Shown: positions 1-5,151 of the stretch, piece by piece | How the letters are laid out: each line of letters begins with the position of its first letter | Position numbering within the stretch: the stretch's first letter is position 1 | Assembly (NCBI GenBank): GCA_023247285.1 | Contig: JAHFGU010000121.1 | Location: 1 to 5,151, forward strand | Direction: 5' to 3' | DNA length: 5,151 nucleotides | Origin: Candidatus Omnitrophota bacterium | Lineage (GTDB): Bacteria > Omnitrophota > Koll11 > Aquiviventales > Aquiviventaceae | The notes under the pieces: model-generated | The model's input: the letters and a program-made list of their open reading frames with translations, nothing else | Database searches by the model: none | Told to the model about the DNA's origin: nothing | Position numbers and translations under genes: made by a program

Positions 1-290
1 TCCTCCATCGGCAGCCATTCGAGGCCATGCGGCCACCACCGGCCTCGCAGCCGCGAGGAGCCGCACCACCGGACCACCCCTGTGGCGATGACCGGCTCGC
101 GGTCCTCGCCGGGAAGCTGCACACTGAGCGTAATGCGCTCCCCCACCTGGTGCGCCTTCCGCGCGAACAGCCCGGCGCCCCGCTCGCTGAGATTCATGAG
201 CTGGCCGTCGCGGGGGAGAAAATCTTCGGCGGGACAATACTGCGTGCGGCTTTTGAAGGGAATCCGGAGCGTGCCGCGCCGCTCCTGCAT
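1..290 (-). CDS. PilZ-domain protein (partial, C-terminus beyond left edge)
   Basis: Reading leftward from ATG at 290, 96 codons are open and run off the window edge. The start is MQERRGTLRIPF. It contains the two signatures of cyclic-di-GMP-binding PilZ domains: an RxxxR motif (R5 to R9) and an NxSxxG motif (N33-L-S-E-R-G38). Later it shows the usual GxVxW strand (residues 71-75, GVVRW) and an HGLEW strand near residue 88. Both ligand motifs are intact, so cyclic-di-GMP binding is likely; the output is unknown. The start codon overlaps the stop of the upstream 683-residue gene (TGATG, one shared base), with only a weak GAGG four bases before that overlap, so translation is probably coupled. 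The gene is the third of an apparent operon whose second product also ends in a PilZ domain. What follows residue 96 cannot be seen, so it may be a single-domain protein or a larger one. Confidence 0.85.
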   Translation of the reverse strand, partial: MQERRGTLRIPFKSRTQYCPAEDFLPRDGQLMNLSERGAGLFARKAHQVGERITLSVQLPGEDREPVIATGVVRWCGSSRLRGRWWPHGLEWLPME

Positions 291-2341
291 CACGCCTCGT
301 CCCCGTTGGAGGCCGCCGCGGCGGCTTCGGCGGTCGATGCGGTCAGCAGATCGCGCAGCCGCTTGCGCGAGGCGTCAGAGAGGCCAAGAAACTTCCATCC
401 GCTACGAAAGCCGGCCTCGGTCTCCGCGGAGCGCTGCCAGACGGCTTCGATGTTTGACTGGATCGGCCGGCGGCCGGAGACGCTCAATCGGGCGCGCAAT
501 CCGCCGGTGGGCAGCTCCTGCTCGCTGCGCAAGCCGGCCCCCTCGTCGCTGAGATCTTGCGGCGACCCGCTGAACAGCGTACCGGTGCCGCCACGCAGCT
601 CGAGATGAATGGCCGGGCGCGCGCGGCGGAGGGACCGGCGCCGCTCTTTGGCGGCCGCCGCCTGCAGCGTCGTCACCTGCTGCCGCAGCTGCCGGATCGC
701 ATCCTCGAGGGCGCGTTCGCGGGCGGCAGCCTGCTGCAGCTGCTGCTGGAGCTCGGCGAGCTGGCGCTCCATCGCCTCGCTGCGCACGCGCTCTTCCCCG
801 AGGTACCAGCTGGTTTCATCCCGTTCGCGCTCGGCTGACTCAAGCCGCTGGGCGCTTTCCTGCAGTACCGCCAGCTGCGCGCCCAGATGGTTGGCGCGCT
901 CCTGCGCCTCCCCAAGATACCACTGGCTTTCTTCCCATTGTTTGCGGAGCATGGCCGCGTCCTGCTCCCACCGCTGCAGGTCGGCCTCGTGCCGCCGGAG
1001 TTGCTGCGACGCTTCTTCGATCTGTGTTTCCAACTTGGCCGTCTTCGCGCGCTCCTCCCCGAGGTACCAGCTCGCTTCATTGCGCTGCGTGCGCAGGGTG
1101 TCCAACTCTTCCGCATATTGGCGCAGGGTGTCTTTGGCTTCGTCCAGCCGCGCCTGCTGCTGCTCAAGCTGACGGGCGTAATACTCGCTGCCGGCGCCGA
1201 GGCTGAGCAGTGCAGCCAACTGCTCCCGGCCGATCAGGGTAACGTGATGCTGTTTGGCCATGCGCTGCGCCGGCACAGTGAAAGAGCCGGACGCCACCAG
1301 CACGCCCTGGACCAGCTTGGCCTCGCCGAGCACGGTCATGAAGCGTTCGACCGTTTGCTTTTCAAAAAACGGACCATACCAGACAAACAGCAGCCCGCTC
1401 TTGACGCCGTCTTTGATGACGATGCGAAACGTGCCGTACGGCGGCTTGGCAAGATCTTGCTCCAAGACCAGCTGGTAGCCCTGGCGTTCGAACGCGCGCC
1501 AGACGAGTTGATCGATGAGCACCGCCCCAGACGGCAGCCGCGGACCTGCTGGAAACGCGTGCCGCCTGCGCCACCGGGCCAGTACGAGCGTGGAGCCGAT
1601 CAGCCACGCGGCGATGCCCAGCAGGAGGATCCCGATGATGGCGATGCGGGCTGCGCTGGATCTGGGCGCTGGCGGGACGGCGGGCGAGGAGGACGGCGCG
1701 CTGGACGGGTTCGGGCGAGGCCAGGACGGCGCCTCGCCGGAGACCAGGTCAACGGGCCCATAACCCGTCGGGTGCACTGGCCGCAGCGGCACCGGGGTGG
1801 CTTGCGCAAGCGCCTCCTGCATCGCCCGGAACCGCTCGCTGATGCTGGCCATCCCTGACCCGGTGAGGATGGTGCCCTGCCCCAACCCGACTTCGATGGA
1901 GGCGCTGCTGATAGACACCGGATGCTCGATCTCAATGGCGATGCGGCCTGCGTCGGCGCGGATCTGGTAGGTGTACGGCCCGCTCAGCTGCACCTGGAGC
2001 GCGCGCAGGAATCGCTTGCCGCCGCTCCCCTCATACTGCGCGGCGATGGATTGGATCGGGCCCGCTGAGATGACGGCTCGTTCCGGCAGCGACGCGAGCA
2101 CACGCCGCGGCGGAAATTGAATCCGGATCGTCGGCGGCCGGTTGACCCAGCGGGTCTGGATGGGCACCGGGGCGTCGGTATCGATTTTCAGCAGCACCAG
2201 CGTCCGGCTTCTCGCGGTGGCGTCCCCGGTTTCGGCTGCCACCGCGGCATGCGGGCGCGCGAGAACCGCCAGGCCGCTGAGGGCCAGCGCGCATCCGAAC
2301 GCGGCGCGGCGCCGCGCGCTAGAGCAGCCGGACAAGATCAT
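290..2341 (-). CDS. Membrane protein: AMIN-like, TM, inactive Mrr-like, coiled coil with WYLGE repeats, PilZ
   Basis: This is a 683-residue protein. Residues 10-36 form a signal peptide (RRR, hydrophobic core, AVAA cleavage-like site). Residues 47-140 resemble an AMIN domain, the beta-rich envelope-targeting module of PilQ and AmiC proteins (VNRPPTIRIQF, then alternating strands to IAIEIE). A Pro/Ser-rich linker (about 203-228) precedes a transmembrane helix (232-255) ended by RWRRR, so the following part should be cytoplasmic. Residues 270-380 match the Mrr restriction-endonuclease fold, best seen in SFTVPAQRMA and VTLIGREQLAALL, but the expected Asp and QxK catalytic positions are not apparent. 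Residues 385-565 are coiled coil with three WYLGE motifs. Residues 566-668 are a PilZ domain with RxxxR (R568/R572 or R569/R573) and DLSDEG (596-601). An in-frame TGA immediately precedes the ATG, so no longer start exists; a TTG two codons in fits the ribosome binding site better. The exact function is unknown; a cyclic-di-GMP-responsive envelope protein is inferred. Confidence 0.92.
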   Translation of the reverse strand: MILSGCSSARRRAAFGCALALSGLAVLARPHAAVAAETGDATARSRTLVLLKIDTDAPVPIQTRWVNRPPTIRIQFPPRRVLASLPERAVISAGPIQSIAAQYEGSGGKRFLRALQVQLSGPYTYQIRADAGRIAIEIEHPVSISSASIEVGLGQGTILTGSGMASISERFRAMQEALAQATPVPLRPVHPTGYGPVDLVSGEAPSWPRPNPSSAPSSSPAVPPAPRSSAARIAIIGILLLGIAAWLIGSTLVLARWRRRHAFPAGPRLPSGAVLIDQLVWRAFERQGYQLVLEQDLAKPPYGTFRIVIKDGVKSGLLFVWYGPFFEKQTVERFMTVLGEAKLVQGVLVASGSFTVPAQRMAKQHHVTLIGREQLAALLSLGAGSEYYARQLEQQQARLDEAKDTLRQYAEELDTLRTQRNEASWYLGEERAKTAKLETQIEEASQQLRRHEADLQRWEQDAAMLRKQWEESQWYLGEAQERANHLGAQLAVLQESAQRLESAERERDETSWYLGEERVRSEAMERQLAELQQQLQQAAARERALEDAIRQLRQQVTTLQAAAAKERRRSLRRARPAIHLELRGGTGTLFSGSPQDLSDEGAGLRSEQELPTGGLRARLSVSGRRPIQSNIEAVWQRSAETEAGFRSGWKFLGLSDASRKRLRDLLTASTAEAAAAASNGDEA
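795..1072 (-). repeat. Repeated WYLGE motif segments inside the 683-aa gene
   Basis: The coiled-coil region carries three copies of a motif of the form E-x-S-x-WYLGE-x. Copy 1 has Trp425 (codon at 1067-1069), copy 2 Trp474 (920-922) and copy 3 Trp512 (806-808). Copies 1 and 3 both read SWYLGEER; copy 2 reads SQWYLGEAQ. At DNA level copies 1 and 3 share 17 identical bases (1056-1072 and 795-811), while copy 2 has diverged. Trp-to-Trp spacing is 49 then 38 residues, so only the first interval is a whole number of heptads. The pattern suggests internal duplication, followed by selection to keep the aromatic-glycine motif. Confidence 0.85.
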
Positions 2342-2996
2342 TCACCTGAACCCGGGCTGCCTGCCACTCCGGCAAGAGTGTCGCCGCGCACACCGCTTCC
2401 TGCACCCGCTCGATGCGCGCTTTGGCCAGCAACTGATTGTCGCGGAAAATCGAAACCGTGTCGCCGATCTTGACCACGCCCCAGCCCAAGTCAATGACGA
2501 TGAACTGCCAGGCCTCATGCACGGACAGGACGCGGCCGGTCTGCATCCCGCTCGCCGCATCCCGGACCAGAATCCGCTCCAACTCCACCGAGGCCGCCGG
2601 CGCGCCCGTCGCCGGGCCGCCGCCATGCTGCAGGGAGAGGGAAAGCTCGCCTTGAAGCTGGTTCATCTGTTCCTGCATCGCGGCCAGGCGCTGTTGCAGC
2701 TCCTGCACGTGGCGCGTCTCCTCAGTCAGCCGACCGACCGCTTCCTCGAGCCGGCCGCGCAGGGTGCCGAGGGCGTCCGTGAGCTCCTGCGACCGGCCTT
2801 GCTCCTTGGCGAGGCTGTCCTGCAGCTTTTGATGCGTCGCCAACACTTCGCCGTACTGCAGCTCCACTTGCTGCCGCTCCGCCACGGCGTGGCGGTACCG
2901 CCCTTCCGCGCCGCGGCGCGCCAGGTCTTCGCCTGCGACCGCCGTCGCTAATCCTACGGCCCCGATCACGGCCATCCATTGTCCGGTCTTACTCAC
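2319..2996 (-). CDS. Membrane-anchored coiled-coil protein with FlgT-C-like beta domain
   Basis: This is a 225-residue protein starting at GTG (2996). A perfect AGGAGG lies five bases upstream, which favours this start over the ATG at codon 8. Residues 7-22 are a hydrophobic segment (signal peptide or anchor, with a weak AVAG site). Residues 24-118 are Gln/Glu/Leu-rich coiled coil. A Gly/Ala/Pro linker (124-135) leads to a compact beta-rich domain at 150-225 of the form GRVLSV...FIVIDLG...VKIGDTVSIFRD...ARIERV...VQVNDLVRLL. That layout (an 'ID-G, GD, interval, x-ND-V' series) resembles the FlgT C-terminal type of domain; this is pattern recognition, not a search result. It is the first gene of an operon: its TAG stop lies 23 bases inside the next coding region. 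It may form a complex with the 683-residue coiled-coil membrane protein. No enzymatic motif is visible. Confidence 0.88.
   Translation of the reverse strand: MSKTGQWMAVIGAVGLATAVAGEDLARRGAEGRYRHAVAERQQVELQYGEVLATHQKLQDSLAKEQGRSQELTDALGTLRGRLEEAVGRLTEETRHVQELQQRLAAMQEQMNQLQGELSLSLQHGGGPATGAPAASVELERILVRDAASGMQTGRVLSVHEAWQFIVIDLGWGVVKIGDTVSIFRDNQLLAKARIERVQEAVCAATLLPEWQAARVQVNDLVRLL
2342..2347 (-). promoter_or_regulatory. Ribosome binding site AGGTGA, favours a TTG start for the 683-aa gene
   Basis: AGGTGA directly abuts the ATG at 2341, too close to serve it. It is six bases from an in-frame TTG at 2335-2333 (codon 3). Starting at TTG would give a 681-residue protein beginning at the LSGCSSARRR segment and would leave the signal peptide unchanged. 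I kept the ATG coordinate for the gene, but consider the TTG at least as likely. Confidence 0.5.
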
Positions 2997-3001
2997 CCTG
3001 C

Positions 3002-3007
3002 CCTCCT
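3002..3007 (-). promoter_or_regulatory. Strong ribosome binding site for the 225-aa gene
   Basis: A perfect AGGAGG lies five bases (GCAGG) before the GTG start at 2996. It fixes the non-ATG start and suggests efficient initiation for the first gene of the operon. It is 26 bases beyond the hairpin stem at 3033-3062, so folding in the leader could in principle affect access to it. Confidence 0.85.
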
Positions 3008-3028
3008 GCGCCTGCCAGATGACAACAC

Positions 3029-3062
3029 AAAACCCCCCAACGACATTGCGTCCGTTGGGGGG
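3029..3062 (-). terminator. Intrinsic terminator or leader attenuator hairpin
   Basis: On the minus strand CCCCCCAACG (3062-3053) pairs perfectly with CGTTGGGGGG (3042-3033) around a 10-base loop, and is followed at once by TTTT and then GTGTT. The plus strand has no T run after the stem, so it works in the minus direction only. It lies 85 bases past the tRNA-Leu gene and 36 bases before the next start codon. It most simply ends the cobO-ilvD-tRNA transcript. Because a promoter is predicted upstream of it, it may also be a conditional terminator in the leader of the 225-aa gene. The T run is short, so efficiency is uncertain. Confidence 0.75.
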
Positions 3063-3115
3063 AGCCTGAAGCGTTCGTCAGAGGGGTGTGTCACTGTCGC
3101 AACTCGCTAGGTCAC

Positions 3116-3144
3116 ACAGTAGCAAGTGTTGCGTGCGTTGTCAA
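3116..3144 (-). promoter_or_regulatory. Predicted sigma70-type promoter for the PilZ operon
   Basis: On the minus strand TTGACA (3144-3139), a perfect -35 box, is followed by a 17-base spacer and TACTGT (3121-3116), a -10 box with T1, A2 and T6 conserved. A TG one base upstream of it (3124-3123) makes an extended -10. The start of transcription would fall near 3109, giving a leader of about 113 bases before the GTG at 2996. The -35 box begins only three bases after the tRNA discriminator base. The AT content here is higher than in the surrounding genes. It is predicted from consensus only. Confidence 0.6.
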
Positions 3145-3147
3145 TAA

Positions 3148-3229
3148 TGCAGGGAGGGGGAGTTGAACCCCCACGCCTTTCGGCAATAGGCCCTCAACCT
3201 ATCGTGTCTGCCAGTTCCACCATCCCTGC
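3148..3229 (-). tRNA. tRNA-Leu (anticodon GAG)
   Basis: This is an 82-base class II tRNA with all arms present. The acceptor stem pairs GCAGGGA (3229-3223) with TCCCTGC (3155-3149). The D arm has GTG/CAC around a loop containing TGG. The anticodon stem ATAGG/CCTAT encloses the loop TTGAGGG, giving anticodon GAG at 3195-3193. The long variable arm (GCC-GAAA-GGC) is typical of leucine tRNAs, and the T arm is GGGGG-TTCAACT-CCCCC. The discriminator base is A at 3148, as expected for leucine. The next bases are TTA, so CCA must be added after transcription. It reads CUC and CUU codons. It sits 19 bases after ilvD on the same strand and may be processed from the same transcript. Confidence 0.97.
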
Positions 3230-3248
3230 GTAGGCCGCCACCAGCAGT

Positions 3249-5003
3249 CTAGCGCGCGCGATGCGCGACGGCAACCGTGTTGTGGGACCGGCGGCGCGCG
3301 GTCCGCGGCGCTGGCCCTCGTGCCGGCACCGGCGCGGTGACAGCACCATCGGACGCGGAGGAGACGAGCGCAGCGTACTTGGCCATCACGCCGGTCGTGT
3401 AGGCGGGCGCCGGGGCGCGCCACGCCGCCTGCCGGCGCGCGCGCTCAGCCGCCGACACGCGCAGGTCCACGCGGCGCGCCTCCACATCGAAGCGGATACG
3501 GTCTCCGTCGCGCACCAGCGCGATCGGCCCGCCGCGCGCCGCCTCCGGCGCCACGTGCCCGGCCATCAAGCCGCGCGTGGCCCCGGAGAAGCGCCCGTCG
3601 GTAAGCAAAGCGACGGATCCCCCGAGCCCCTGCCCCACGAGTGCCGCGGTGACCGCCAGCATCTCGCGCATGCCGGGCCCGCCTTTGGGGCCCTCGTACC
3701 GGATGACGACGACGTCGCCGGGATGGATCTGCCGGCGCTGCACCGCCGCAAACGCGTCTTCTTCGCAATCGAAGACGCGCGCCGGCCCCTCATGGCGCAG
3801 CGGCTCGTGGCCGGTGATTTTCACGACGCAGCCGTCCGGGGCGAGGCTGCCGCGCAGGATGACTAGCCCTCCGCTGGGCTTGAGCGGACGCGCCGCCGGC
3901 CGCACCACCGGCTGGCCTGCCCGCTCCTTCGCGCGCCGCGCTTCCTCGCCGATCGTGCGGCCCGTGACCGTGAGCGCGCCGGCATGCAGCCGGCCGGCTT
4001 CCAGCAACCGCTTGGCCACGACCCCCACCCCGCCGGCCGCGTACAGATCGGTGGCCACATACCGCCCCCACGGCTTCAGGTCCGCGAGCAGCGGCGTGCG
4101 GCGGCTGATCCGCTCGAACTCATCAATGTCCAGGGGAACGCCCGCCTCGCGCGCAAGCGCCAACAGATGCAGCACGGCGTTCGTCGAACCGCCGGTCGCG
4201 GCGACCGCGGCGATGGCGTTTTCGAGCGCGTGGCGCGTCACAATCCGGCGCGGCCGCAGATCCCGCCGCAACAGGTCCATCACCAGGCGCCCGGCCTTCA
4301 CGGCGACCTGGGCTTTCGCCGGATGCATCGCCGGGACGCTGGCGCTGCCCATCGGCGAGAGCCCGAGCACTTCGATGGCCATCGCCATCGTGTTCGCGGT
4401 GAACTGGCCGCCGCACGCGCCAGGCCCTGGGCACGCCACGTCTTCCAGCGCATGCAGGTCCTTGGGGGACATGCGGCCGGCGGCGCACGACCCCACGGCC
4501 TCGAACACATCCTGGATCGTGACGTCGCGGCCGCGGAACCGGCCCGGCGCGATGGAGCCGCCGTAGAGCATCAGGGACGGCAGATTGAGACGGATCAGCG
4601 CCATGGCAGCACCCGGGATCGTCTTGTCGCAGCCGACCAGCGCCACCACGCCGTCAAAGAGGTGCCCGCGGACGACGAGCTCGATCGAATCCGCCACCAC
4701 TTCGCGGCTGATGAGCGACGCCTTCATGCCCTCGGTGCCCATGGCGATCCCGTCCGACACCGCGATCGTGTTGAACTCGATCGGGGTGCCGCCTGCCGCC
4801 CGGACCCCGACCTTCACCTGCTCCGCCAAGCGGCGCAGGTGGAAGTTGCACGGCATCACCTCGATCCACGTGTTGGCGATCGCGATGAGCGGCCGGCGCA
4901 GGTCCGCATCGGTGAAGCCGATCCCCTTGAGCATGGCGCGGCTGGGTGCGCGGTCCAGGCCGTCCACCAGCACGCGGCTGTGCGCGCGCGCATGTGAAGA
5001 CAT
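3249..5003 (-). CDS. ilvD: Dihydroxy-acid dehydratase IlvD
   Basis: IlvD dehydrates 2,3-dihydroxy-isovalerate and 2,3-dihydroxy-3-methylvalerate to the 2-keto acids that lead to valine, leucine, isoleucine and pantothenate. It is a cytoplasmic iron-sulfur enzyme. The 584 residues are in the usual range for the family. Visible landmarks are C52 (MPCNFHL), D84 (VSDGIAMG), the cluster and metal site C125-D126-K127 (GCDKTIPG), CPGPGACGG with C197, [17 protein letters not shown] (269-279), and the C-terminal [11 protein letters not shown] with S473. The three cysteines at 52, 125 and 197 match the [2Fe-2S] type rather than [4Fe-4S]; this is inferred from position. ATG at 5003 overlaps the cobO stop (TGATG), with AAGGAG ten bases before it. 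The family core ends near residue 557 ([10 protein letters not shown]); the last 27 or so residues are an extra arginine-rich tail. Confidence 0.97.
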
Positions 5004-5151
5004 CAGTAATCTACTCCTTGCTGTGCTGGGATCTTGCGCTGCCAGGGATGCTTGATTTCCGTCATCTCGGTCACAAGATCCGCGCGGTCCACGAGCGCCT
5101 GCGGCGCGTTGCGGCCGGTCAACACCAGGTGCAGCGCAGGCGGCTTCGCCT
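5003..5151 (-). CDS. cobO: Cob(I)alamin adenosyltransferase, CobO/BtuR family (partial, C-terminal 48 residues)
   Basis: The last 48 codons of a gene entering from the right edge end at TGA (5005-5003). The peptide contains [22 protein letters not shown] and the terminal AQQGVDY, which together match the C-terminus of the CobO/CobA/BtuR family of corrinoid adenosyltransferases. These P-loop enzymes transfer the 5'-deoxyadenosyl group of ATP to reduced cobalamin or cobinamide, in coenzyme B12 synthesis or salvage. The nucleotide-binding N-terminus is outside the window. The stop codon overlaps the ilvD start by one base, so the two genes are probably co-transcribed. The frame was read directly from the reverse complement. 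Confidence 0.9.
5014..5019 (-). promoter_or_regulatory. Ribosome binding site for ilvD
   Basis: AAGGAG lies within the last codons of cobO, ten bases before the ilvD ATG at 5003. The spacing is somewhat long, but there is no nearer candidate start, and translational coupling through the TGATG overlap would help. Confidence 0.65.

Follow-up and report, generated by a model that had tools for sequence, protein, structure and literature searches.

This report concerns a 683-residue protein encoded on the minus strand (290..2341) of a 5,151-nucleotide stretch of DNA from Candidatus Omnitrophota bacterium (GenBank assembly GCA_023247285.1, contig JAHFGU010000121.1, positions 1 to 5,151), hereafter the window. 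From its N- to its C-terminus the protein joins an AMIN domain, a transmembrane (TM) helix, an apparently inactive Mrr-type nuclease fold, a long coiled coil and a PilZ domain. An initial annotation made from the sequence alone had listed these domains in this order; Pfam profiles, predicted folds and homologues bear the list out, and the occurrence of one protein combining them at 290..2341 is confirmed. Judged from sequence comparisons, the protein is a clade-specific form, distinguished by its Mrr-type domain, of a wider Omnitrophota family that we define here as AMIN-TM-PilZ. The gene and the elements of its product are as follows.

290..2341, minus strand: gene for the 683-residue AMIN-TM-inactive Mrr-coiled coil-PilZ protein (open reading frame [ORF], Pfam, structure model)
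2234..2341, minus strand: signal-peptide-like N-terminus, residues 1-36 (hydropathy only)
1919..2212, minus strand: AMIN domain, residues 44-141, predicted periplasmic (fold, homology to Mrr-less relatives)
1802..1837, minus strand: RFxAMQ helix before the membrane, residues 169-180 (conservation, helix in the model)
1574..1645, minus strand: TM helix, residues 233-256, followed by the remainder of RWRRR (model, hydropathy)
1196..1540, minus strand: Mrr-type domain of the PD-(D/E)XK fold, residues 268-382, in which the canonical catalytic D and K are missing
644..1195, minus strand: heptad coiled coil, residues 383-566, with a helix break near 504-516 in the model
1055..1069, minus strand: WYLGE motif 1, residues 425-429
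908..922, minus strand: WYLGE motif 2, residues 474-478, 49 residues past motif 1
794..808, minus strand: WYLGE motif 3, residues 512-516, 38 residues past motif 2
341..646, minus strand: PilZ domain, residues 566-667, with R568xxxR572 and D596xSxxG601 (Pfam, fold, motif)

Results

The PilZ domain retains its ligand-binding signature

The C-terminal domain has the PilZ fold, passes the Pfam curated cut-off and contains every residue of the bipartite signature RxxxR and [DN]xSxxG (R568, R572, D596, S598 and G601). A protein database search with the window protein returned 180 matches, and counts out of 120 given below refer to the best 120 of these, the window protein included. The signature is complete in 112 of the 120, gapped in one and incomplete in seven; in a smaller alignment of 57 proteins it is complete in 55. 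Binding of cyclic dimeric guanosine monophosphate (c-di-GMP) is predicted from this complete motif. Both the fold and the bipartite motif are common to the PilZ c-di-GMP receptors Alg44, YcgR, MotI and MrkH, as seen in their structures. Unlike in those proteins, the PilZ domain here stands at the end of a long coiled coil in a membrane protein whose AMIN domain is predicted to lie across the membrane. To our knowledge, no PilZ receptor of this build is known, and a search of the open literature turned up none with an AMIN domain on the other side of the membrane.

The Mrr-type domain is highly conserved and lacks canonical catalytic residues

Residues 268-382 match Mrr_cat by fold and by profile; compared with the sequences of solved structures, the Mrr profile gives three matches, all with E-values of 0.31 or worse. 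The active-site register was taken from a separate 941-residue Omnitrophota Mrr protein (L042, genome G108) that keeps D..QAK; it was used for this purpose only, its activity being assumed from the motif. Aligned to the family profile, its catalytic D falls on residue 305 and its K on residue 320, with a slack of one residue, and positions 306 and 321 were therefore scored as well. None of the 120 listed proteins has D or E at 305 or 306, and position 306 is R in 119 of them. Likewise, none has K at 320 or 321, while R occupies 321 in two and Q occupies 318 in two. The initial annotation of a nuclease-fold domain thus holds for fold and profile but not for the canonical catalytic D and (Q/E)xK of an Mrr endonuclease, which are missing throughout the 120.

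On this evidence the nuclease fold looks inactive. Pfam family NA-iREase1, which shares the fold and is likewise termed inactive, matches 39 of the 57 aligned members at E ≤ 1; it is NACHT-associated by name, whereas the domain described here lies between a TM helix and a coiled coil. The near-invariance of D277, E285, K310, E327 and K328 counts against inactivity, and displaced active sites are known in the PD-(D/E)XK superfamily. Columns in which a single residue accounts for at least 90% of the sequences number 38 of 115 in the Mrr-type domain, 13 of 98 in the AMIN domain and 10 of 102 in the PilZ domain, and no long region of the protein is more conserved than the Mrr-type domain and the coiled coil next to it.

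The coiled coil shows a sharp hydrophobic period of 3.5 over residues 385-503. Its W-x-[LF]-G-E motifs are regularly placed, with neighbouring pairs separated by 49 residues (seven heptads) in 115 of 165 cases and by 38 in 46 of 165, and they are probably docking or register points. A spacing of 38 residues does not divide into whole heptads, and motif 3 falls where the long helix is predicted to break. Matches of the coiled coil to SMC, Filament and other Pfam and NCBIfam entries fall far under their cut-offs and were set aside as compositional.

An AMIN domain and a single membrane helix precede the predicted cytoplasmic part

The AMIN-like domain of the initial annotation stands by fold and by homology but fails to reach the Pfam AMIN curated cut-off in the window protein. 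Its fold matches the structures of AmiC and PilQ. When the domain was modelled in isolation, Foldseek alone gave no match at E ≤ 0.001, its top row nevertheless being PilQ, and re-examination of the Foldseek matches with VIA-align placed AmiC and two PilQ structures first. An N-terminal profile built from the Mrr-less relatives described below matches window residues 45-181 at 50.8 bits, the best of 200 shuffled sequences reaching 1.3. Eight of 13 Mrr-less homologues pass the Pfam AMIN cut-off and one more falls short by 0.1 bit. AMIN is not among the 25 most matched Pfam families of the 57 aligned proteins, and the AMIN profile run against solved-structure sequences returned just a chance cadherin match (E 0.83). 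The AMIN fold and the predicted periplasmic location are shared with the AmiC amidase and the PilQ secretin. Unlike these, the 683-residue protein matches no amidase or secretin domain and is membrane-anchored with a large cytoplasmic part.

Model and hydropathy support, as a prediction, the topology first proposed for this protein: a signal peptide, a periplasmic AMIN domain, one TM helix and a cytoplasmic remainder. A hydrophobic stretch lies ahead of residue 40 in 45 of the 57 aligned proteins, the TM segment passes the hydropathy cut in 46, and no second such segment occurs past residue 268 in any of the 57. Between the AMIN domain and the membrane, RFxAM is present in 56 of 57 proteins, and six of the 12 columns of the RFxAMQ helix are at least 90% one residue.

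The protein belongs to one clade of a wider Omnitrophota family

Domain order is conserved among homologues, Mrr_cat being annotated in 119 and PilZ in 110 of the best 120 of the 180 matches. Six of the listed matches are assigned to an organism by name, in every case a member of Omnitrophota. We searched 384 Omnitrophota genomes at E ≤ 1e-20, scoring at most three candidates per genome, and found the full-length protein in 15. A single full-length copy was counted in 9 of 9 genomes. The Mrr profile matched these 15 genomes and, in addition, the one separate Mrr protein of G108 (L042). One further locus, L062 (G007:C20), is a stretch interrupted by runs of N.

The AMIN profile matches 42 of the 384 genomes, the same 15 and 27 others. 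Of these 27 we examined 15, and among the remaining 12 several may be secretins. A complete ORF with AMIN and PilZ domains is present in 13 of the 15 examined (L051, L052, L057, L084-L092 and L094), while in the ORF list L083 is split and L093 truncated at its start. These 13 proteins have a homologous AMIN domain and a C-terminal PilZ domain, mostly a TM-like segment, and often an up225-type gene (see below), and they differ from the window protein in having no Mrr-type domain. All 13 pass the Pfam PilZ cut-off, and in 11 the hydrophobic segment between AMIN and PilZ reaches a mean of at least 1.6 (L086, 1.22; L087, 1.49). A profile search from nine of them gave 76 matches, the named ones being Omnitrophota. 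A homologous AMIN domain, a TM segment and a C-terminal PilZ domain define the AMIN-TM-PilZ family, and the window protein has all three.

In a 32-row tree of the AMIN part, with rows chosen by profile, all 19 Mrr carriers fall on one side of a single branch (support 100/99), requiring one change; the tree is unrooted as to the direction of that change. Because this one branch separates all carriers, the Mrr-type domain, as read from the tree, is gained or lost once in the sample. The domain combination had been flagged as unfamiliar. No named family with the whole architecture was found in Pfam or NCBIfam. The protein is no one-off, recurring across one Omnitrophota clade. In the open-licence literature we found no description of this family, no match for an AMIN domain together with a PilZ domain, and no paper on c-di-GMP in Omnitrophota; two papers mention both Omnitrophota and PilZ, each word once.

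Three of the 13 Mrr-less proteins differ further by a C-terminal CBM48/AMPK1_CBM tail (L052:1135-3450, L057:1073-2869 and L088:433-2040), a module of the glycogen-binding type attached to a putative c-di-GMP receptor. Directly after the short form of the family lie a divergent polysaccharide deacetylase gene (PF04748) in L085:93-887 and L086:2414-3208, and a glycosyl hydrolase 57 gene in L090:2415-3323.

Conserved neighbours of the 683-residue gene

The gene is the middle member of three minus-strand genes that overlap end to end, and the following features surround it.

2319..2996, minus strand: up225, upstream partner gene of 225 residues, with a hydrophobic N-terminus, a coiled coil and a conserved C-terminal domain
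3..290, minus strand: downstream PilZ gene, incomplete at the window end
3033..3062, minus strand: terminator-like hairpin between a transfer RNA (tRNA-Leu) gene and up225

The gene up225 overlaps the 683-residue gene by 23 bases, and the ATG of the downstream PilZ gene has one base in common with the stop codon of the 683-residue gene. Upstream, beyond the hairpin, lie tRNA-Leu at 3229-3148 and, further up, ilvD. Transcription of the three genes probably starts separately, because the terminator-like hairpin parts them from tRNA-Leu; the window contains four terminator-like sites against 2.2 expected from shuffles, and a promoter-like site looked for in the window was not found.

All 18 genomes of the Mrr clade have up225 immediately ahead of the gene. 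A PilZ gene follows it in 16 of 17; no such gene was found in L007, and L003, where the sequence ends, is not counted. An up225-type gene, present ahead of the window gene, is also upstream at 8 of the 12 Mrr-less loci that the AMIN profile alone brought up; among these eight, a single match is weak (21.2 bits). The N-terminal hydropathy of up225 is 1.5 in the window, and the aligned pieces of several relatives begin past that stretch. Genome G005 encodes an up225 paralogue and, next after it, a PilZ protein. No AMIN domain is seen in this PilZ protein, which carries the stretch RLQAMDSAL ahead of its TM segment. Because this resembles RFxAMQ, we infer that the RFxAMQ helix may be the up225 contact. 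Complete homologues of the downstream PilZ gene (L001, L005 and L006 were read) have the order PilZ, hydrophobic segment, coiled coil, the segment having a hydropathy of 2.14, 2.37 and 1.54, respectively. A 1028-residue ORF in L004 that joins the homologue of the 683-residue protein to the downstream PilZ gene was considered as a Rosetta-stone fusion and dismissed: its first PilZ domain is broken, with profile positions 620-674 falling in a different frame, and Pfam finds one PilZ stretch. This ORF looks like a frame change rather than a real fusion.

The up225 family itself is phylum-wide, with matches in 311 of the 384 genomes. In L054, L055, L058 and L059 an up225 homologue lies between rluD-like and aroA-like genes beside an mreB-like gene (identified by eye from ORF starts), an adjacency that suggests a possible link to cell shape.

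Downstream of the Mrr-clade genes, convergent genes for a response regulator, a histidine kinase and a FIST protein were identified by Pfam in 7 of the 8 loci with downstream sequence; the eighth, L008, keeps the GGDEF gene alone. The convergent GGDEF-FIST-histidine kinase-response regulator set spans L001:6803-11638 and has equivalents in L002, L004-L007 and L009, the L004 version having no GGDEF match. In 16 of 18 Mrr-clade genomes a GGDEF-domain match is found on the opposite strand no more than 1.6 kb downstream, and in the two others the contigs end 71 and about 1350 bases past the gene. This nearest match is partial in 14 of the 16, and by our reading 13 of those 14 genomes have another, fuller GGDEF match on the same strand within 6 kb. 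The separate GGDEF protein carries RxxD-x5-GGDEF in L001, L007 and L008. No pilus genes are seen among the annotated neighbours.

Discussion

We lean toward the view that the 683-residue protein is a bitopic inner-membrane c-di-GMP receptor that acts as an envelope scaffold. The AMIN domain, predicted to be periplasmic and wall-binding, would hold or recognise peptidoglycan or an attached envelope complex; the AMIN domains of AmiC and PilQ are described as binding septal or polar peptidoglycan (PMC10653833). The membrane-proximal RFxAMQ helix would dock a partner, for which the coiled-coil protein up225 encoded upstream is the likeliest candidate. Inside the cell, the nuclease-fold domain without its usual catalytic residues would connect to the long coiled coil, which bears the putative W-x-L-G-E docking motifs and the terminal PilZ domain, and both the Mrr-type domain and the coiled coil may recruit partners. 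The products of the neighbouring FIST, histidine kinase, response regulator and GGDEF genes would raise c-di-GMP, whose binding to PilZ would change the coiled coil and alter recruitment at the wall site. The output would be the placement of an envelope machine, the type IV pilus system being one candidate, and a link from c-di-GMP to peptidoglycan or pili is plausible.

Several observations weigh against this interpretation. The window protein falls below the Pfam AMIN cut-off, the TM segment stays under the hydropathy cut in 11 of the 57 aligned proteins, and charge past the TM segment exceeds charge before it in just 32 of the 57, being equal in eight. The structure model has a predicted TM-score (pTM) of 0.35, at which the arrangement of the domains relative to one another is not predicted. 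PlpA of Myxococcus has the PilZ motif residues and reportedly does not bind c-di-GMP (PMC8316039). The nearest GGDEF match is partial, of the response-regulator type, in 14 of 16 genomes, and the three regulators read (L001, L005 and L007) have GGDDF rather than GGDEF; this GGDDF domain may serve as a receptor and not as a cyclase. Finally, all 18 Mrr-clade genomes have secretin and T2SSE matches, which are unspecific for pili; a pilus-type or secretion machine is therefore available, with nothing linking it to the 683-residue gene.

The same anatomy would also fit a sensor working from the outside in, in which the AMIN domain reads the wall or an envelope machine, the coiled coil and PilZ domain relay the signal, and c-di-GMP merely gates the output. 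The near-invariance of the RFxAMQ helix, next to a TM segment that is not itself so conserved, agrees with such a role. The adjacent convergent GGDEF genes fit c-di-GMP as input better, and we regard the sensor as a possible but rather unlikely alternative. It is also conceivable that the protein tethers the nucleoid to the envelope, the dead Mrr-type domain binding DNA uncut while AMIN holds peptidoglycan and PilZ, through c-di-GMP, decides the linkage. We consider this unlikely, with several features in its favour: the Mrr-type domain lies right beneath the membrane, exceeds the other whole domains in conservation and has near-invariant basic residues (R306 in 119 of 120 listed proteins, K or R at 328 in 56 of 57, R360 and R372 in 57 of 57), R306 being at or beside the position of the lost catalytic D.

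A nuclease controlled by a cyclic nucleotide, with PilZ as its switch and an active site built from non-canonical residues, is suggested by the nuclease fold adjoining a cyclic-dinucleotide-binding domain, and the near-invariant E285, K310, E327 and K328 could in principle form a displaced active site. Such a nuclease is nonetheless very improbable, given the loss of the canonical D and K in all 120 listed proteins (Q at 318 in two), and a single full-length copy per genome (9 of 9) with conserved neighbours is unlike a mobile defence gene. FliO, which in several phyla is built as AMIN-TM-cytoplasmic part, provides a precedent for an AMIN domain ahead of a TM helix and cytoplasmic part, in the same order as here, and raises the question whether the protein is a distant FliO relative or another envelope part of the flagellum; FliO differs in its small cytoplasmic beta-sheet and its place in the flagellar export gate, and PilZ is absent from the main text of the source (PMC12403147). 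We give this derivation almost no credence: where FliO has a short beta-sheet, the cytoplasmic part here is made up of an Mrr-type domain, a coiled coil and a PilZ domain, and no flagellar gene appears among the annotated neighbours (flagellar genes were not searched for genome-wide).

Known receptors of c-di-GMP act mostly on enzymes, motors or transcription. If the protein is the envelope scaffold that we favour, a membrane-spanning receptor with an AMIN domain would give a direct route from c-di-GMP to sites in the cell wall, and would show a nuclease fold under stronger selection than the protein's other domains after its canonical chemistry was lost. Together with the neighbouring GGDEF genes, the family would offer a compact test system in the uncultured phylum Omnitrophota.
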